Shown here one piece after another: positions 15,458-25,554 of a stretch of DNA of 64,000 nucleotides; positions within the stretch are counted from its first letter, which is position 1, and each line of letters starts with the position of its first letter. This stretch comes from Nitratidesulfovibrio sp. SRB-5. GTDB taxonomy: Bacteria > Desulfobacterota > Desulfovibrionia > Desulfovibrionales > Desulfovibrionaceae. Position numbers and translations under genes: made by a program. The stretch lies in the NCBI RefSeq assembly GCF_019931275.1, contig NZ_JAIOTY010000001.1, positions 1,770,650 to 1,834,649 of the forward strand, read 5' to 3'. The notes beneath the pieces are model-generated. The model made no database searches. It was not told the origin of the DNA and was given only the letters and a program-made list of their open reading frames with translations.

Positions 15458-16528
15458 TCAGCAGGCCCGGATGATGGCCGGGGCGATTTCTTCCAGCGAA
15501 ACCACCTTGCGCACGCCGCCCAGCTTGATGGCCTCCTGCGGCATGCCGAAGACCACGCAGCTGGCTTCGTCCTGGGCAATGGTGTGCGCGCCAACGTCGA
15601 ACAGTTCCTTCATGCCCGCCGCGCCGTCGTCGCCCATGCCGGTCATGATGGCGGCCACGGCGTTGCGCCCGGCGTACCGTGCCGCGGAACGGAACAGCAC
15701 GTCCACCGAGGGCCGGTGCCTGCGCACCAGGGGGCCTTCGCGCACCTCGACATAGTAGCGCGAGCCGTTGCGCTTGAGCAGCATGTGCATGTTGCCGGGC
15801 GCTATGAGCACCTGGCCGCGCCGCATGGCGTCGTTGTCCTGCGCCTCCTTCACGGTTACCCGGCAGATGGCGTTGAGCCGGTTGGCGAAGGCTGCGGTGA
15901 AGTGTTCCGGCATGTGCTGCACGATGGCGATGGGCGGGCAATCGGCGGGCAGCGCCTCCAGCACCACGCGCAGGGCCTCCGTGCCGCCGGTGGAAGCGCC
16001 GATGACCACCATCTTTTCGGTCTGCTGCACCGTGGTGGTCAGCGGGGTGGCCGCGGGCAGCACCGCATCGGCGGAAAGCTTGGGCGGCACCCCGGCGGCC
16101 AGCGGGCTGAGCTTGCGCAGCCGGGCGCGGGCGGCGGCCTTCAGCGCGTCGCAAATGCGGATGCTGGATTCCTCCAGAAAGCGCTTGGTGCCCATGCGCG
16201 GCTTCTGGATGACCTCCACCGCGCCGTATTCCATGGCCTTGAAGGTGGCCTCGGCCCCCTGCTCGGTCACCGACGAGCAGATCACCACCGGAATGGGGTG
16301 CTGGGTCATGATCTTGCGCAGGAAGGTGATGCCGTCCATGCGCGGCATCTCCACGTCCAGCAGGATCACGTCCGGGGCCACCGTCTCCATGCGCTTGGCC
16401 GCCACGAAGGGGTCGGACGCGGTGCCTATGAGTTCCAGTTCCTCGTCGCTGGCGACGATGTCGGCCAGGGTCTGGCGGACCAGGGCCGAATCGTCCACCA
16501 CCAGTACCTTGATGCGGCGGGGGGTCAT
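15458..16528 (-). CDS. cheB: Chemotaxis response regulator protein-glutamate methylesterase CheB
   Basis: CheB removes methyl groups from MCP glutamates when phosphorylated by CheA, giving adaptation. The 356-residue product has an N-terminal receiver domain (VDDSALVR; phospho-acceptor Asp in [11 protein letters not shown], about residue 57; switch Ser in VICSSV; Lys in QKPR). After a linker comes the methylesterase domain with the catalytic Ser in [10 protein letters not shown], His in VQHMPEHF and Asp in [12 protein letters not shown]. Its ATG overlaps the cheR stop by 4 bp. All catalytic residues are present. Confidence 0.96.
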
Positions 16529-17415
16529 CGCGTTCTCCGGTAGACGGTGGGAGCCACCTGTTCAAGGGGCAGCGCCATGCCGGTAAGACTTTCGGAGTGG
16601 CCGATGAACAGGTGCCCGCCGGGGCGCAGGCACTGGCAGAACCGGCTGAACAGCCCTTCCTGCGTGGGCTTGTCGAAATAGATGATCACGTTGCGGCAGA
16701 AAATGATGTCCATGGGCTCTGAAAAGCTGAAGGGATCCATGAAGTTCAGCCGTTCGAAGTGCACGGCGGAGCGCAGTTCCGGCCCGATGCGCACCAGGCG
16801 GCGCGAACGGTCGCGGCTGCGCAGCAGGTAGCGCTTGCGGAACTGGTCCGGCACGTTGTGCACCCGCTCTTCTTCATACACGGCGCGGACCGCCTGTTGC
16901 AGCGCCCGCGACGAAATGTCCGTGGCCAGGATGGAAAAGCTGAAACCTGCTGTGCGTTCCTGATAGTCGCGCAGCACCATGGCCAGGGTGTAGGGCTCCA
17001 TGCCGATGGAACAACCCGCGCTCCATACCCGCAGGGGGCGCTGGGCGCGCAGGCGCACCGCCTCGCTCGTCCAGCCGGGCAGCAGCGTGGAGGTCAGGTA
17101 GTCGAAATGACGCGGTTCGCGGAAGAATTCCGTGGTGTTGGTGGTCACCACGTCGATGAAGTTGCGCAACTCCTCGTCAAAGCCCTTTTCCGTGAACAGG
17201 TAGTCCACGTACTGGTCGTAGCTGGCCATGCCCAGCACGCGCAGCCGCTTTTGCAGGCGCGCCTCCAGCATCACCCGTTTGGAGCCGGGCAGCTTGATGC
17301 CCACCTGTTCGTAGACGAAGCGGCTCATGCGGTCGAACAGCTTCTGCGACATGGGGCCGGGGCGGGCACAGCCCACTGGCAATAATGCCGGGCTGTCACT
17401 GCGGTTGGGACTCAT
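16525..17415 (-). CDS. cheR: Chemotaxis protein methyltransferase CheR
   Basis: CheR uses S-adenosylmethionine to methylate receptor glutamates. The 296-residue protein has the N-terminal all-helical CheR domain ([17 protein letters not shown]), the motif [14 protein letters not shown], the SAM-binding segment [18 protein letters not shown] and the residue pattern [12 protein letters not shown]. The substrate-side motif [10 protein letters not shown] follows. The first 21 residues are variable, so MSQKLFDR at residue 22 could be the true start. The ATG at 17415 overlaps the cheA stop by 4 bp and cheB follows with 4 bp overlap. Confidence 0.96.
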
Positions 17416-19586
17416 GCGCCCCCCCCGTGCGACGCCGCGGGCACACGCTGCCCGCGCGGGGGCTGGTCCACCGCAAGCTGCACCAGTCCCGGCACGTCCA
17501 GGATCAGGGCCATGCTGCCGTCACCCTTGATGGTGGCGCCGGAAATGCCGGGCACGTCCTTGTAGATGCGGCCCAGGCTCTTGATGACCGTCTGGTGTTC
17601 GCCCACCACGCAGTCGACCACTAGGCCGAACCGGCTGCCCTGCGCATCGACCACCACCACCTGCTCGATGGCCGGAGCGGGACCGGAAGAGGCGAACAGC
17701 TCGCGCAGGCGGATGTAGGGCACGATCTCTCCGCGCAGGTTGATGATGCGCTGCCTGCCATCGGCGGAACTGGGGGTGGAGTGTTCCGCGCATTCCTCCA
17801 CGTGGTTCAGCGGGATGACGTACGATTCGCCACCCACCAGCACCTGCAGGCCGTCGATGATGGCCAGGGTCAGCGGCAGGCGGATAGTCAGGGTGGTGCC
17901 CCTGCCCACCGCGCTGTCCAGTTCTATGCGGCCACGCAACGCCTCGATGGAGCGCTTCACCACGTCCATGCCCACGCCCCGGCCCGAAACGCTGGTGACC
18001 TTTTCCGCCGTGGAAAATCCGGGGGCGAAGATGAGCTCGATGGCCTCGCGCGCGGGCAGTTCCACATCCGGGGCAATGACGCCGCGCCTGCGGGCGATTT
18101 CCAGCACCCGGGCGGGGTCGATGCCCGCGCCGTCGTCGGCGATGGTGATCAGCACCTCGCCCCCGGCATGGGCCGCCGAAAGGGTTACCGTGCCGGTGCG
18201 CGGCTTGCCTGCGGCGGCGCGCACGTCGGGCGACTCCACGCCGTGGTCCAGGCTGTTGCGCAGGCAGTGCACCAGCGGGTCGCCCAGGCGCTCTATGACG
18301 GTCTTGTCCAGTTCCGTCTCGCCGCCCAGGGTCACCAGTTCCACGTCCTTGCCCAGTTCCGCCGAAAGGTCGCGCACCAGGCGGCGGAACTTGCTGAACG
18401 TGGTGCCGATGGGCAGCATGCGGATGCCGAGGGTGGTGTCGCGCAGTTCGTCGCTCAGCCGTTCCAGTTCTTCCACCAGCCCCAGCAAGCCGGGATCGCT
18501 GCGCAGATGCGCCGCCTGGGAAAGCTGGGCCTGCACGATGACCAGTTCGCCCACCAGATCCACCAGAAAATCCAGCTTGGATGCGGCAACCCGGATGCTG
18601 GCCCCTGAATCGTCGCGCGCGGTCGATTCCTTGTCGCGCGACTGGCGGATGGTGCGCACGGCCTGCTGTTCGGCCAGCGCGGCATCCACCCTTTCCGGGG
18701 GCACCACGCCCGCGTCGGTCAGCAGCCTGCCCAGGGGGCGCTGCTCGTCCAGCACACGATGCAGATCGTCGGAGCTGACGTCGCCGCGCTCGATCAGGAT
18801 TTCGCCCAGCCGCTTGTAGGCGGCGTCGTCCACGATGCGCGCATCGTCCACCAGGCGGATGTCGACGTCCGCGTCGTCCTCCACGAACAGGAACACGTCG
18901 CGGATGGCGGCCTCGTTCGATTCGCTGGAAAGCAGCACGTCCCACCACACGTGGCACAGCTCGGGCTGCAACTCGTCCAGGCCGGGCACCTCGCTGAAGT
19001 GCGGAAACACCTGCGCGCCGCCCATGTCGCGCAGTTCGTCCAGCAGGGCCAAGGGGTTGGTGCCGCTGAAAAGAATCGAAGGCACGGGGCGAAAGCGCAC
19101 CCGCCAGGTGCGGGCACAGGGGGGGCACGGCGCTTCCGTCTCTGCCGGGCATTCCCCGTCGGCAGTGCCGTCTGCCGGGGCATCGGCCGGGGGGGCGGCC
19201 ACGGGCACCAGCGCCCGCAAAGAGGCGGTGATGGCGGCGGCGTGCGCCAGGTCCGGGGCATCGCCGGTAACGGCGCAGTTCAACAGTTGGGCGATGTGGT
19301 CGCGCGAGGCCAGGGTCAGGTCCAGCAACTGGCGGGTGACGGGCACCTCGCCGTTGCGCACCCGGTCGAACACCGTTTCCACGTCATGGGTGAAGTGGGC
19401 GATGTCGTCGAAACCGAACATGGCCCCGGAGCCCTTGATGGTGTGCATGGCCCGGAACACTCGCGCCACCAGGTCGCGGTCATCGGGCTGCGCCTCCAGT
19501 TCCAGCAGGGCCGTTTCCAGCTCTGCCAGCAGGTCCTGCGCTTCTTCGATGAAGGCTGCCCTGTTTGCGTCTTCCTGCGATTGCAT
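17412..19586 (-). CDS. cheA: Chemotaxis histidine kinase CheA with MshEN-like middle segment
   Basis: CheA autophosphorylates on histidine in response to receptors and passes phosphate to CheY and CheB. In this 724-residue form the HPt domain carries His48 in FRAMHTIKGSG. A nonstandard region follows at about 160-250, where CheA P2 normally lies. Residues 259-308 hold two motifs of the MshEN/GspE-N type (RLGEILIERGDV and LGRLLTDAGVV, each ending EQ). The dimerisation helices (SKLDFLVDLVGELVIV, about 335), ATPase domain (N-box HCLRNSLDHG, then DDGAGID and GRGVGMDVV) and C-terminal CheW-like domain are complete. The ATG at 19586 matches the usual start. No separate cheW is nearby. Confidence 0.95.
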   Translation of the reverse strand: MQSQEDANRAAFIEEAQDLLAELETALLELEAQPDDRDLVARVFRAMHTIKGSGAMFGFDDIAHFTHDVETVFDRVRNGEVPVTRQLLDLTLASRDHIAQLLNCAVTGDAPDLAHAAAITASLRALVPVAAPPADAPADGTADGECPAETEAPCPPCARTWRVRFRPVPSILFSGTNPLALLDELRDMGGAQVFPHFSEVPGLDELQPELCHVWWDVLLSSESNEAAIRDVFLFVEDDADVDIRLVDDARIVDDAAYKRLGEILIERGDVSSDDLHRVLDEQRPLGRLLTDAGVVPPERVDAALAEQQAVRTIRQSRDKESTARDDSGASIRVAASKLDFLVDLVGELVIVQAQLSQAAHLRSDPGLLGLVEELERLSDELRDTTLGIRMLPIGTTFSKFRRLVRDLSAELGKDVELVTLGGETELDKTVIERLGDPLVHCLRNSLDHGVESPDVRAAAGKPRTGTVTLSAAHAGGEVLITIADDGAGIDPARVLEIARRRGVIAPDVELPAREAIELIFAPGFSTAEKVTSVSGRGVGMDVVKRSIEALRGRIELDSAVGRGTTLTIRLPLTLAIIDGLQVLVGGESYVIPLNHVEECAEHSTPSSADGRQRIINLRGEIVPYIRLRELFASSGPAPAIEQVVVVDAQGSRFGLVVDCVVGEHQTVIKSLGRIYKDVPGISGATIKGDGSMALILDVPGLVQLAVDQPPRGQRVPAASHGGGA

Positions 19587-19695
19587 GTGGCACTTCCTTG
19601 TCCGCCCGCCTGACCACGCCGGGCTCACTGATTCAATCGATCCGCCGGTTCCGGGGCCACCTGCTCCGGGCACTCGCCCGCCCGTGTCCATCAGA

Positions 19696-19735
19696 CTTTG
19701 GCACGCTTTGGCAGGCTTTGGCACGCTTCGGCAAA
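19696..19735. repeat. 10-bp tandem repeat, four copies
   Basis: Units ctttggcacg, ctttggcagg, ctttggcacg and cttcggcaaa stand in a perfect 10-bp phase. This is close to one helical turn. Confidence 0.85.
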
Positions 19736-19752
19736 CCCCGCAAGGTACGGCC

Positions 19753-19809
19753 GGGTTCGCGGACTTCGGCAGGGTTCGCGAAGTTCGGCCGGATTCGTGG
19801 AGTTCGGCA
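19753..19809. repeat. 19-bp tandem repeat, three copies
   Basis: Three 19-bp units of the type gggttcgcggacttcggca (19753-19771, 19772-19790, 19791-19809) differ at a few positions each. They lie 20 bp from the 10-bp repeat and share the ttcggca element with it. Confidence 0.85.
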
Positions 19810-19940
19810 GGGGCCACGGGGTTCCCCGAGTGCCCGGAGCCGTCCGAGTCCGCCTGCACAGGTCTGAACCGGTTCGAGCCGGTGCGAACCGGGCCGGACG
19901 GGTCTGGACCAGTTCAGGCTGGCCCGGACTGGACCGCCCC

Positions 19941-20000
19941 CGGCTGAACCGAGAGGATCCCGGCTGAACCGAGAGTATCCGGGCTGAACCGGGCCAGGGC
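19941..20000. repeat. 20-bp tandem repeat, three copies
   Basis: Units at 19941-19960 and 19961-19980 are cggctgaaccgagag(g/t)atcc with one difference. A third, more diverged unit fills 19981-20000. Confidence 0.85.
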
Positions 20001-20234
20001 GGTCCGACAGGACGACCGCGAAGACCGGGCGAACGGCACGAACGGAGCAAACTGCACGAACCGCGCGAGCGGCTGACATGCCCCATCAGGGCAGGGGCAG
20101 GCAAGGTCCGGTCATGGTCCGGGCAGGAAAGCCCGTCCCCATGCCGGCCAGCGAGACGGGCTGGTCGTCCCCGGACCCGTCGTTCCGTCTGCCGTGCCGT
20201 TGCCCCGGTGCTCCGCCGATGCGAGGCGCCGGTC

Positions 20235-20597
20235 CTAGCCGAGCACCTTCTTGACCACGGCCAGCAGCTGCTCCGGCTGGAACGGCTTGACGATCCACCC
20301 CGTGGCCCCGGCGGCCTTGCCTTCCTGCTTGCGCGTGGCCTGCGATTCCGTGGTCAGCATGACGACGGGAATGAACTTGTACGCCGGGTTGGCGCGAATC
20401 TGCCGGATCAGTTCTATGCCGTCCATGTTGGGCATGTTCAGGTCGGTGATCACCATCTTGATGGGGCCGGAAAGCTTGCTCACCGCATCCTTGCCGTCCT
20501 TGGCCTCGATGACTTCATACCCAGCGTTGCGCAGGGTGAAGCCTACCATCTGCCGGATGCTCGCAGAATCGTCCACCGTCATGATGAGCTTGCTCAT
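20235..20597 (-). CDS. cheY: Chemotaxis response regulator CheY
   Basis: This 120-residue single-domain receiver is phosphorylated by CheA and presumably controls the flagellar motor. The acidic pair is in MTVDDSASIRQ (residues 9-10), the phospho-acceptor Asp is in VITDLNMPNMDG (about residue 52), the switch Thr in MLTTES and the conserved Lys in IVKPFQP. No output domain is present. It has a GAGGG ribosome site. It sits 203 bp after the soluble MCP-like gene and 648 bp before cheA on the same strand, so it belongs with this cluster. Confidence 0.94.
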   Translation of the reverse strand: MSKLIMTVDDSASIRQMVGFTLRNAGYEVIEAKDGKDAVSKLSGPIKMVITDLNMPNMDGIELIRQIRANPAYKFIPVVMLTTESQATRKQEGKAAGATGWIVKPFQPEQLLAVVKKVLG

Positions 20598-20800: not shown

Positions 20801-22627
20801 TCAGAAAAGTTCCACGTTGTCGCCGTAGCCGTCGCCGCTTCCGTCAGCGGGCGCGGCAACGTCCTGCGCAGCATGGCCGCCGCCCAGCACGCGACCGTGC
20901 AGCACCCGTTCCTGCTCCATGGTATAGCGGTCGCGCATGGCGGCCAGACGGCGCGACGCCGCAGCCCGCGCCGAGGCGGGCACCCGTTCCCGCAGCGCTG
21001 CCGCCATCTCGCCCACCTCGTCGGCGGCACCGGAAAGCCCGGCCACCACCTGGGCGTCAAAATCCAGCCCCTTGACGGCGTGGTCCACCCGGTTGGCCAG
21101 TTCCGCGCAGGCCTGGCCAACCCTGGCGAACAGGCGGGCGGCCTCGCCGTTCACCTCGCGCAGGCCGTGGGTAAGCCCTTCCAGTTCGCCGGAAATCTCG
21201 GACACCCGCGAGGAATCGAGATAGGCCGTGGCGTAGGTCTTGAGCTGCCCGGCCACGCCGTCCACCTCGCGCAGCAGGGTGGCCAAGGCCGTGGTGCTTT
21301 CGCCCGCGTCCTGCGACAGCCGCTGGATGGACGAGGCCAGCACCCCCAGGGCCTTGCCCTTTTCGCCGGTATGGGCGGCCCGGATGCTGGCGTTGAGCGC
21401 GATGAGCTCGATCTCGTCGCCAACGTCTTCGATATCTTCAAGGAAAGCGCTCATCTGCGCAACCATTTCGGCCACCTCGACCATGACGTGCCCCATGCGC
21501 TCGCCCTGCTCCGCCAGGGACAGCATGCGCGTGGCGATTTCCGTCACGCTGCGCTCCATGTGGTCGAGCACGGCAGTGCCGCCGCAGTCTTCGCCCAGGC
21601 ACGTCGCGTCGGAAAAGCCCCCGGTGCGCTGCCCCACGCCGCGCACGCTGGCGGCAATGGCCGTCAGTTCGCGCCGCAAGGTGGAAACGGCATCGGAAAA
21701 ACTGACCCTGGCGTTTTCCAGCTGGGCCTGCTGCAGGGCGCAGATGTCTGCGGCCACGGCCAGTTCCACTGCCACGGCCTCGTCGGCTGCGGGGGCTTCC
21801 GGAGTGTTGGGGGAACTGGCGGAAGCATTGCCGAAGGCGCCTTCCAGGCTCGCACGCGCGTCGGTCAGGGCCTCCTCCACGTGTTCCACCTGCTGACGCA
21901 CGATGTCGTGGAATTGCAGCGAACCTATGATGCGTCCCATGGAAGCGGAAATGTCCGCCGTATGTCCGCGCACGTCTTCCGAGGCCTTGCGGCTGCCCTC
22001 GGCCACTTCGTGCAGGGTATCCATGTTGTCGCGGATGGAGCCGAACACCGAATAGGCGCATTCGCGCTGCATCTCGTGCATCTCGCGGGTGCTGGCCTCC
22101 GCCTTTTCGGCCAGGTTGTCCAGCGTCTTGGCCTGCTGCATGATGCGGTCGGAATATTCGACGATCTTGTAGCCCAGCTTTTCCACGTCGTCGGCAAGGG
22201 TGCTGAAGCCGCGCCCGTCGGCCCCCAGGCGGGCGCTTTCGATGCGCGTGGAAATGCCCAGCATTTGCAAGGTGCGCACCACGCGGGCATAGTCGCGTAT
22301 GGATTTGGAAAGTTCGTGCACTAGTTCGCGGGCGCGGGCCAGCATGGCGAGGTCCCTGGCGTCATCGTCCACGTGGCAGAGGGTCTGCATGGCGTCCAGT
22401 TCCACCACCAGCTCTTCCAGAATATGGCGCACGGTGTCGCCCGAGGCGATGTGGTTCAGCTGCTGGCTGTCCGCGGCGATGTCCTGCACCCGCATGGCCA
22501 CGTCCTGCAATTCCGCGCCAAGGGCAAGAAAATCGTCTTCACGCCGCTGCACCAGCAGGGCCAGCCCGCTGCCCACACGTCCAAGCCGCTCCCGCACTTC
22601 GCGCGCCAGCGCCGTGTATTCCTGCAT
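20801..22627 (-). CDS. Soluble MCP-like chemotaxis protein with two signalling-hairpin tips and a CheZ-like motif
   Basis: This 608-residue, almost wholly helical protein lacks any membrane segment or signal peptide. It looks like an internal duplication. Residues about 122-150 (LGISTRIESARLGADGRG) and 408-436 (LIALNASIRAAHTGEKGK) both resemble the MCP hairpin tip that contacts CheA/CheW. Each is followed about 110 residues later by a similar segment, LQFHDIVRQQ (237-246) and LDFDAQVVAG (521-530). The first contains D241-x-x-x-Q245, the spacing of the CheZ phosphatase motif. A low-complexity linker (about 265-290) joins the halves. Lying just before cheY, it may act as a cytoplasmic receptor, a CheY phosphatase, or both; this is inference. 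The segment GLGGGH... near the end is probably disordered. Confidence 0.75.
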   Translation of the reverse strand: MQEYTALAREVRERLGRVGSGLALLVQRREDDFLALGAELQDVAMRVQDIAADSQQLNHIASGDTVRHILEELVVELDAMQTLCHVDDDARDLAMLARARELVHELSKSIRDYARVVRTLQMLGISTRIESARLGADGRGFSTLADDVEKLGYKIVEYSDRIMQQAKTLDNLAEKAEASTREMHEMQRECAYSVFGSIRDNMDTLHEVAEGSRKASEDVRGHTADISASMGRIIGSLQFHDIVRQQVEHVEEALTDARASLEGAFGNASASSPNTPEAPAADEAVAVELAVAADICALQQAQLENARVSFSDAVSTLRRELTAIAASVRGVGQRTGGFSDATCLGEDCGGTAVLDHMERSVTEIATRMLSLAEQGERMGHVMVEVAEMVAQMSAFLEDIEDVGDEIELIALNASIRAAHTGEKGKALGVLASSIQRLSQDAGESTTALATLLREVDGVAGQLKTYATAYLDSSRVSEISGELEGLTHGLREVNGEAARLFARVGQACAELANRVDHAVKGLDFDAQVVAGLSGAADEVGEMAAALRERVPASARAAASRRLAAMRDRYTMEQERVLHGRVLGGGHAAQDVAAPADGSGDGYGDNVELF

Positions 22628-22999: not shown

Positions 23000-25105
23000 T
23001 CAGTCCAGAAAGCGGATTTCCGCCCGTGCCACATGCTCGCCCTGCGGGGTCAGCCTGACGTCCACCTTCCGCTTCATGAAGTCGGCCGCGCCAAGGACGA
23101 TTCCCTCGAAGTATTCGAACAGCGCACGGGAGGAACGATAGGTCATCACGAGAGTGTCACCCCTGTCTTCATAGGTGAATGCGGGAGGATTGATGCCCGG
23201 ATAGTCCTTGGTGAGCTGCTTGTGCAGTGCATCCATGCCCAGGTACAATTCCTTCAGGTCATTGGTCTTGAAGTAGCGGCGATACATCCGGTAGAAGCCG
23301 TCCATGGTGTAACGGCCCAGCTTGCGGAACACGTCCCTGGACGAATCGCCCGTGATGCGCGAAAGCTCGTGGGCCATCTGCTTCAGCACCTGATCCGGAT
23401 AGTTGGCGGTGGCCAGGAACACGGGGTTGCCCATGGCCTCCAGCATCTTGGCCACCACATCGCGCCCGTAGTTGCCCACGGCGAATTCCTGCATCAGCTT
23501 GGGCAGCACCCCGCGCATCTGCCCCTGCGACTTCCACAGCTTGGTGGCGTCCACCTTGGCCTCGCTGAAGCGCACGGCCAGCGTCAGCAGTTCCTGCGAA
23601 AGTCCGGCCAGGTCACGCGTGGCCGCCGAGGCCTGCACCGCGCCCGTTTCCGATTCACCGGCCACGCTGGCGATGGCCTCCACCGCGCCGGTGACCTCTT
23701 CTGCCGAGGCGGACTGCTGTTCCGCCGCCGTGGCGATCTGGGCCACCCGCTCCACCATGTCCTGTATGCGCACGGTAATGCGGCTGATGGCCTGCCCCGC
23801 CTCGTTGGAAAGGCGCGTGCTTTCCGTCACCTGCCCGCCCGTGACCTGCATGGACTGCATGGCGTCGTGCGAGCGCTGCTGGATGGTGCGCACGGCCTGT
23901 TCCACTTCCTTGGTGGCGGACATGGTCTTTTCGGCCAGCTTGCGCACCTCGTCGGCCACCACGGCGAATCCGCGCCCGGCGTCACCGGCGCGCGCCGCCT
24001 CGATGGCGGCGTTGAGCGCCAGCAGGTTGGTCTGGTCGGCTATGTCGTTGATGACCCCGATGATGCGGCCTATCTCGCCAGCCTGCCCGTCCAGCTGGTC
24101 CAGTTCCGCGGCCAGCCGTTCGGCGGACTCGGCCACGGCGTTGATGCCCTCCACGGCATGCTGCACCAGCGCCGCGCCCGCCGTGGCATCGTCACGGGCG
24201 CCCCGCGCGGCATCGGACGTGGCAGATGCGTTGCGGGCGACCTCCTGCACGGTATGGCGCATCTGCTCCATGGCCGTGGCCACCGACGAGGCTTGCTCCT
24301 TCTGGCGCCCCGCGCCCCGCGCCTGCTCGTCGGCCGAGGCGGAAAGCTCTTCGGAGGCGGACGCCACCCGCTGGGCCAGCCCGCTGATGTCGGCACCCGT
24401 GGCCAGCAGTTCCTGCTGGCGCAGTTCCAGGGCCGAACATTCGCGGCGGGCGTCGCTATGGTCGAACAGGGCCACCACCGCGCCGGTCAAGGTGCCCGCG
24501 CCATCAACAAGGGATTCGGAATGCGCCTGCAACGACAGGCTCACTCCGGACGTGGTGGCCAGTTCCACGTCGCGATGCATGGAGGTCGTGGGCGGCACGG
24601 GCATGAAATCCAGCGCGGCCCTGGTGGCGCCGCTGCCGCCCCCACTGCCCGCAAGGGCCTCTGCCGGGCTGCGCCCCACCATCCGCCCCTCTGGCAGGCC
24701 TGCCAGCGTGACCACGCCCTTGCTGGCCCTTGCGATGCGGCCCGAGGCATCCAGCAGCAGCACCGGGGCGGTCATGAGTTCGAAGGCCTTGTGCAGTTGG
24801 GTGGCATCCGCCTCCAGCCGGGCGGCGACCTCCAGTGCCGGATGAGGAACCGCGCCCCGGGCGCGCTGGTCGTCACGCACTCGCACCGGCCCCTGAGCGG
24901 CCAGGTCGGCCCGCAGTTGTTCCAGCAAGACTGCGCTGGCCCGCAGATCGTACGCCACGGCCACCGCGGTGAGCGCAAGGCCGCAACACAGGGCGATGAC
25001 GGCCCACATGATGCCGCCCGGCAGCGCAAGACCTGCGGCAAGAAGGGTCAGTGCGGTGCCAAGTACGGCCAGGACGAAGGAAAATGGCGGGCGCGGGTTT
25101 TCCAT
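23000..25105 (-). CDS. Methyl-accepting chemotaxis protein with C-terminal H-NOX domain
   Basis: This 701-residue receptor has two N-terminal membrane helices (about 8-28 and 33-53) with almost no periplasmic loop, then a PAS-like domain (about 105-215). The MCP signalling domain has its tip at [20 protein letters not shown] (residues 355-374). The last 180 residues are an H-NOX (HNOB) heme domain: ANYPD, then DALHKQLTK with His628 at the place of the proximal heme ligand. YRSSR (656-660) matches the YxSxR motif that holds the heme propionates. H-NOX domains bind NO and sometimes O2, and C-terminal fusion to an MCP is known in Desulfovibrio. The ATG at 25105 has a GGAGG ribosome site. No CheR tether is present. 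Confidence 0.93.
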
Positions 25106-25554
25106 GGCAGCCTCCGGAGGGCGGTGGTGTTGTGCCGGACAGTAGCGCCGAATGTACCGTGTTGCGCCGCGCAAGCAAGCGGGATTGCCAGATTATCATG
25201 CGACGGCACAAGGATGCCCCAAGTCTGTTCCCAGCCTGGGCAGGGCCAGGCACGCCTGCCGGCACCGGGGGCGGATCCGCTTGCCATGGCAGGACAACAG
25301 GGAGAGACAGGTCGCACCAGACCAAAGCCGCACCGTCGGGCCTTGGCGCGGCGCATTTGCTCGGTGCACGGGCACCCTCTGCCTATCGGCAGGAAATGTG
25401 AAAAGACAGGGGGAAAAGCGAAGGCGCACCATAACGGACACGCCACGACAAAGAGTGGCGCAGGTGCGCGGGAGCGCGGCGAAGGGAAGCAGGAGGGACA
25501 GACACGGCAAGCGGGCTTGCGGCGGCAAGGCAGGGCAAGGGCACCCCGCCGGGG
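25106..25554. other. 449-bp spacer between radA and the H-NOX MCP
   Basis: No gene is supported. The region is GC-rich and must contain the MCP promoter and the end of the radA transcript. I see no clear sigma-70 or FliA-type promoter. A near sigma-54 sequence at 25171-25191 has the wrong spacing. There is no strong terminator hairpin. Confidence 0.5.

Follow-up and report, generated by a model that had tools for sequence, protein, structure and literature searches.

What does a soluble protein built of two chemoreceptor signalling hairpins do beside cheY, when one of its helices carries an Asp-x-x-x-Gln motif like that of CheZ? The question is raised by a gene in the window, by which we mean the whole stretch of 64,000 nucleotides analysed here, part of a 4.12 Mb genome; the nearest named relatives found were Nitratidesulfovibrio and Desulfovibrio. 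The open reading frame of 608 residues is indeed present at 20801-22627, adjoining cheY, as the original prediction had it, and lies on the minus strand. Judging from sequence comparison, we find it reasonably probable that its product is a receptor-derived CheY phosphatase, which would work like CheZ while not being a member of that family.

A two-hairpin receptor-like protein in a che cluster

The gene shares its strand with cheY, cheA, cheR and cheB downstream and with an MCP gene upstream:

20801..22627, minus strand: soluble two-hairpin MCP-like protein of 608 residues, the subject of this report (open reading frame list, Pfam, alignment, model)
20235..20597, minus strand: cheY, the proposed substrate (Response_reg 91.2 bits; adjacency)
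17412..19859, minus strand: cheA, listed with a GTG start, the real start probably lying further downstream (Pfam)
16525..17415, minus strand: cheR (Pfam)
15458..16528, minus strand: cheB (Pfam)
23000..25174, minus strand: MCP with a C-terminal haem-NO-binding (HNOB) domain, the upstream neighbour (Pfam)

Within the protein, conservation was read from an alignment of 61 distinct orthologous sequences from 69 loci (E<=1e-15), which were not chosen by motif:

22178..22264, minus strand: tip of hairpin 1, residues 122-150 (E130 in 60/61, R133 in 48/61)
21881..21916, minus strand: CheZ-like site, residues 238-249, QFHDIVRQQVEH, the most conserved 12-residue window
21893..21907, minus strand: DIVRQ, with D241 and Q245 of the DxxxQ motif (61/61 each), in the register of CheZ
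21320..21406, minus strand: tip of hairpin 2, residues 408-436 (N412 and G421 in 61/61)
21038..21067, minus strand: LDFDAQVVAG, second-half counterpart of the DxxxQ site, variable in the orthologue alignment
20897..20929, minus strand: RYTMEQERVLH, residues 567-577 (Y568 and M570 in 61/61)
20804..20824, minus strand: C-terminal tail GDNVELF, residues 602-608, a proposed CheY-docking peptide (F608 in 61/61)

The segments that had been singled out beforehand (122-150, 408-436, LQFHDIVRQQ at 237-246 and LDFDAQVVAG at 521-530) all lie where they had been placed. The protein shares the hairpin fold and the tips with the MCP signalling domain (PF00015), and MCPsignal is its sole Pfam domain above cut-off (66.3 bits, cut-off 34.6; best stretch 380-462). 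An internal duplication had also been proposed, and the two halves do match each other profile against profile (Prob 98.4, E 8e-15). As single sequences they are not significantly identical: offset 286 gives 21 identities, and the best of all offsets from 150 to 339 gives 22; since this is not above chance, the duplication is visible through family profiles only. The joining of two related MCP hairpins would look like such a duplication. In the profile alignment the offset, which had been thought constant at 284-286, is 281 near the start, rises to 286 by the tips and then drops to 284. An F-containing helix had been expected after each tip: the first is conserved and the second is variable (D522 in 17/61, F523 in 27/61), and because of this variability we rejected the idea that hairpin 2 holds an active site of its own.

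The AlphaFold model of the whole protein is all-helical and of low global confidence (pLDDT 79, pTM 0.53). In a fold search, designed four-helix bundles matched parts of residues 85-471. This would be expected if the hairpins pack together, although helical models often give matches of this kind. Modelled alone (pLDDT 82, pTM 0.44), hairpin 1 returned 14 Foldseek matches at E<=0.001, all 14 of them MCP cytoplasmic domains, and after superposition its model deviates from the E. coli receptor tip (6s1k_E) by 1.3 A over 102 residues. Extending the offset of this superposition would place D241 near Tsr residue 496, in what we take to be the adaptation region.

The DxxxQ site and its resemblance to CheZ

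The site is part of the C-terminal arm of hairpin 1. No other 12-residue stretch of the protein, the second MCP tip included, has an entropy as low as that of residues 238-249. D241 and Q245, on whose constancy the original prediction had staked itself, do not vary among the orthologues, and neither do Q238 and H249 (61/61 each); the motif had been correctly recognised as having the spacing of CheZ, and the site is in register with the CheZ active-site helix. Phe is found at position 239 in 55/61 sequences and His at 240 in 58/61, with Gln in the other three. The family consensus reads, with variation, SxQF(H/Q)DIxRQ. DxxxQ is present in 58 of the 60 family open reading frames from 59 fetched neighbourhoods; the two that have no such site (L165, L170) match mainly the second half of the 608-residue protein. 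Two members of genus g26 (L129, L132) have Ser for Phe at position 239 and keep both D and Q.

Comparison was made with true CheZ proteins from 30 genomes of the same taxonomic family, where the site reads (S/G)FQDLTGQR(I/L)K and VDDLL occurs near the C-terminus in 30/30. In the genome carrying the window, QFHDIVRQ of the 608-residue protein stands against GFQDLTGQ of its true CheZ. When aligned with the 30 CheZ sequences by hhalign, the hairpin-1 arm gave E 3.5e-5 and Prob 72, with both D and Q in register; the hairpin-2 arm gave E 1.2e-3 and Prob 19.5. Pfam CheZ (PF04344) is the commonest family among hairpin-1 arms (28/54 at E<=1, best 3.3e-5), as against at most 1/53 hairpin-2 arms and at most 12/47 arms of ordinary MCPs. 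At E<0.01 our own CheZ profile, made from 31 sequences, matched 25/54 hairpin-1 arms, 0/53 hairpin-2 arms and 8/47 ordinary MCP arms, and at E<1 it matched 45/54, 4/53 and 25/47, respectively; because ordinary MCP arms also match, part of the score reflects the coiled coil. Masking D and Q only left 3/54 hairpin-1 arms matching this profile, and masking eight residues left 1/54. A CheZ-site matrix ranked the family's own DxxxQ as the top position in 55/60 family open reading frames.

For the 608-residue protein itself these signals are weaker. Our own CheZ profile gave E 0.06 for the arm and 0.44 for the whole protein (Z=1000), and the site matrix scored residue 241 best, at 7.9, below the best of unrelated open reading frames and of three MCPs. 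No Pfam CheZ match was returned in either a protein scan at E<=1 or a six-frame genome scan at E<=10, so that the profile search suggested with the original prediction recovered the MCP signalling domain and not CheZ. The full-length two-hairpin relatives L147, L163, L172 and L161 likewise gave 0/4 Pfam CheZ matches at E<=0.5. The likeness is supported by whole-genome CheZ scans, which matched the family gene itself, below cut-off, in 7/41 genomes. In a PDB profile search the motif arms retrieved helical proteins, among them coiled coils and MCPs, with no CheZ in the best 60 of 88; in the fold searches CheZ was absent among the matches listed, which excludes nothing. A one-hairpin relative's C-terminal part, searched against the genome carrying the window, found the 608-residue gene first (E 3.5e-7) and CheZ as the second gene (E 0.003). 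Identity as a CheZ was rejected: the Pfam CheZ profile was tried and did not match, and the similarity is local. This local likeness would reflect either a shared short active-site helix or convergence on one.

CheZ and the 608-residue protein have in common a long helix bearing DxxxQ, a Phe at -2, helical hairpins, a linker with a conserved C-terminal peptide and, by eye, hydrophobic residues at -4, +1, +6 and +9 from the site. They differ in scaffold, which here consists of two MCP hairpins with receptor tips, and at two site positions, Gly at +3 being replaced by Arg in the family (60/61) and Gln at -1 by His (58/61). The AXXF(Y)Q motif described directly before DxxxQ in CheZ (PMC7750401) has as its counterpart S-x-Q-F-H, where the A position is held by S in 54, A in 4 and G in 3 of 61 sequences. 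A further likeness extends to the CheC/CheX/FliY and Rap phosphatases, in which, as described, an amide side chain also orients water on the phospho-aspartate (PMC3035606).

The HD pair at 240-241 invites a different reading, in which the site is a phosphotransfer site like that of HisKA_3, with H240 exchanging phosphate with CheY and with D and Q as phosphatase residues. The folds of the CheC/CheX/FliY and Rap phosphatases are unlike that of the CheZ-like two-hairpin protein, and the HisKA_3 consensus is HDxxxQ. H240, D241 and Q245 have this H-box spacing and His is present in 58/61 orthologues; the phosphatase Gln193 of DesK lies five residues past His188 and has been likened to the Gln of CheZ (PMC5231405). 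However, Gln replaces H240 in 3/61 orthologues and in three one-hairpin relatives, as in CheZ, HisKA_3 does not appear among the first 25 Pfam families listed for the 54 arms (down to families with two members, of which further ones may go unlisted), and the 608-residue protein matches neither HisKA_3 nor a histidine-kinase ATPase domain (Pfam E<=1). We regard phosphotransfer as highly improbable.

Receptor features, C-terminal tail and adjacent CheY

The 60 family open reading frames were set against 49 ordinary MCPs of the same neighbourhoods. The methylation consensus is missing from 48/60 family members, and at least one copy is present in 48/49 MCPs; the CheR-binding pentapeptide occurs in 0/60 as against 29/49; and a strongly hydrophobic 19-residue stretch is missing in 54/60, with one present in 43/49 MCPs. 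Methylation consensus, CheR pentapeptide and membrane helix are all missing from the 608-residue protein, whose top 19-residue hydropathy is 1.45 where 43/49 MCPs exceed 1.6, and no sensor domain was found among its Pfam matches. It differs in all these features from MCP chemoreceptors. Of the proposed fusion of a receptor-like protein with a CheY phosphatase, the phosphatase part is supported by the conserved site in CheZ register and by the adjacency of cheY, and the fusion part is not: no phosphatase module is attached to a receptor, the site lying within the hairpin 1 arm and the receptor features tested being absent.

The family carries a tail instead. A C-terminal [VI][EVD][LF]F is found in 58/60 family open reading frames, the exceptions being one at a contig end (L164) and one chimaera (L170), and in 0/49 MCPs and 1/5125 other six-frame open reading frames of at least 80 residues. 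In the model the conserved tail comes after a low-confidence linker. In E. coli CheZ, as described, a linker connects the helix bundle to a C-terminal helix (PMC7750401), and by analogy the tail recalls that CheY-docking helix in a parallel layout, although the sequences differ (VDDLLAQLGL in CheZ, DNVELF here).

A cheY gene adjoins the family gene in 54/60 cases, 53 of them strong matches lying next downstream on the same strand and one (L156) recognised by inspection. In the two members of genus g26 the gene stands directly before cheA with cheY missing between them; the closest cheY lies elsewhere in both genomes, in G121 (L132) beside another cheA and in G133 (L129) at another place. The remaining cases comprise one with no che gene near (L145), two at contig ends (L157, L164) and the chimaera. 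The adjacent CheY has Asn59 in 50/53, Glu89 in 53/53 and the active-site Lys109 in 53/53. It also has Trp at position 106 in 53/53, where E. coli CheY has Tyr106.

Lys92 of CheY touches CheZ, and at position 92 of the adjacent CheY there is no Lys among the residues listed (51/53). As an objection to catalysis we give this loss little weight, because the acid of CheZ is described as pairing with the active-site lysine of CheY (PMC3035606), which is kept throughout. The tail and the adjacency of cheY would suit a non-catalytic CheY-P sink or CheY localiser, the site and tail simply holding CheY at the array; binding alone, however, should need no strict retention of the catalytic Gln of CheZ, and we consider such a role quite improbable beside that of a phosphatase.

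As a CheY phosphatase, the protein would form a rigid helical rod, made by the two MCP signalling hairpins that its single soluble chain contains. The DNVELF tail on its flexible linker would first tether the neighbouring CheY, like the C-terminal helix of CheZ; the Asp-x-x-x-Gln site on the hairpin 1 arm would then enter the active site of CheY-P, where, just as in CheZ, Asp would pair with the lysine and Gln orient the attacking water. The MCP tips may keep the protein at the receptor array near CheA. Catalysis, tail docking and array location are all inferred. If so, this would be an added type of CheY phosphatase that profile annotation sees as an MCP signalling domain only. A bolder version, which we hold to be doubtful, makes the family a separate CheY-phosphatase lineage derived from chemoreceptor hairpins and forming part of the array, with the site at the place of the adaptation region, where tip conformation could gate it; the array would then control both the making and the removal of CheY-P.

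Relatives and distribution

Three one-hairpin relatives (L167, L168, L169) come from genomes of one family, f43. They share a hydrophobic segment at the N-terminus, a single normal MCP tip, FQD(I/A)TRQRIEHV and YTMExER; they end in NVELF, NIVLF or NVVLF, lie beside cheY-cheA, and give Pfam CheZ matches with E values from 0.0008 to 0.018. They may be a link from ordinary MCPs to the 608-residue protein. A search of the one-hairpin arm against plasmids gave no match.

These relatives bear on another possibility, that of an array scaffold like DosM (F9 class), whose two tips would staple arrays while the HDIxRQ helix docks CheA, CheW or another partner without catalysis. DosM and the natural single-chain MCP-like proteins are likewise soluble, with two signalling domains per chain, and DosM homologues are described as mostly having only those two domains and no sensor (PMC9321776). 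Tip residues are kept in both hairpins here, and the fold matches of hairpin 1 are MCP domains. The published descriptions, as far as they go, mention no DxxxQ site, tail or comparable neighbourhood; DosM/F9 clusters have CheW3, and a weak test, single-sequence phmmer at E<=1e-4, showed no separate CheW beside the gene in 59 neighbourhoods. A scaffold leaves unexplained the D/Q invariance with CheZ spacing and context, the tail and the adjacency of cheY, and D, Q and tail are kept also in the one-hairpin relatives with their hydrophobic N-terminal segment. We therefore think it unlikely. Natural single-chain MCP-like proteins are described as having no known role (PMC4692393); should the 608-residue protein be a phosphatase, they would gain a function. 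By titles and abstract openings in the open-access papers searched, no report of a CheZ-like site in an MCP was found.

A separate cheZ, cheC or cheX had been thought absent. This holds for the cluster, as the window contains no match to CheZ (E<=10) or to CheX or CheC (E<=0.001), but not for the genome, where CheZ is found at C1:1536189 and a CheX/CheC-type match at C2:173616. In a sample of the taxonomic family the gene occurs in 52/199 genomes (E<=1e-12), of which 49 have CheZ (exceptions: G014, G016 and the incomplete G136); this co-occurrence weighs against the phosphatase reading and led us to reject a genome-wide replacement of CheZ. In a sample of the phylum it occurs in 45/395 genomes, 41 of them outside the family, and 17 of these 41 have CheZ above cut-off. 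CheX matches were found in 41/46 and CheC matches in 24/46 genomes searched (E<=0.001). Two genomes listed as 100% complete stand out in the profile searches at E<=0.001: G321, with the two-hairpin type, has no CheZ, CheX or CheC, and G251, with the one-hairpin type, has none except the family protein; they have three and two CheA-type matches, respectively. In D. vulgaris, where the genetic evidence is thin, a cheA3 mutant is reported to lose motility halos, and cheA1 and cheA2 mutants are not (PMC3944678).

Several features of the loci deserve mention in their own right. The HNOB-domain MCP lies upstream of the family gene also in L114, L116, L117, L122, L124 and L127. The gap between cheY and cheA in the window (19690-20075) holds several short imperfect tandem repeats with units of 9-20 bases; the listed cheA frame extends into it, and translation probably begins close to the MQSQEDANRAAF Met. 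The chimaera (L170:7696-8739) joins the C-terminal part of a family member in frame with the ATPase and CheW part of a CheA, in the manner of a deletion, and its genome (G466) has a full-length family member elsewhere. In Geomesophilobacter (Geobacteraceae), too, cheY-cheA has a family member as its neighbour (L017). At L192:5986-7557 an open reading frame of 524 residues with a weak CheW match (E 1e-4) is flanked by cheR and cheY; it belongs to a further che cluster of its genome.
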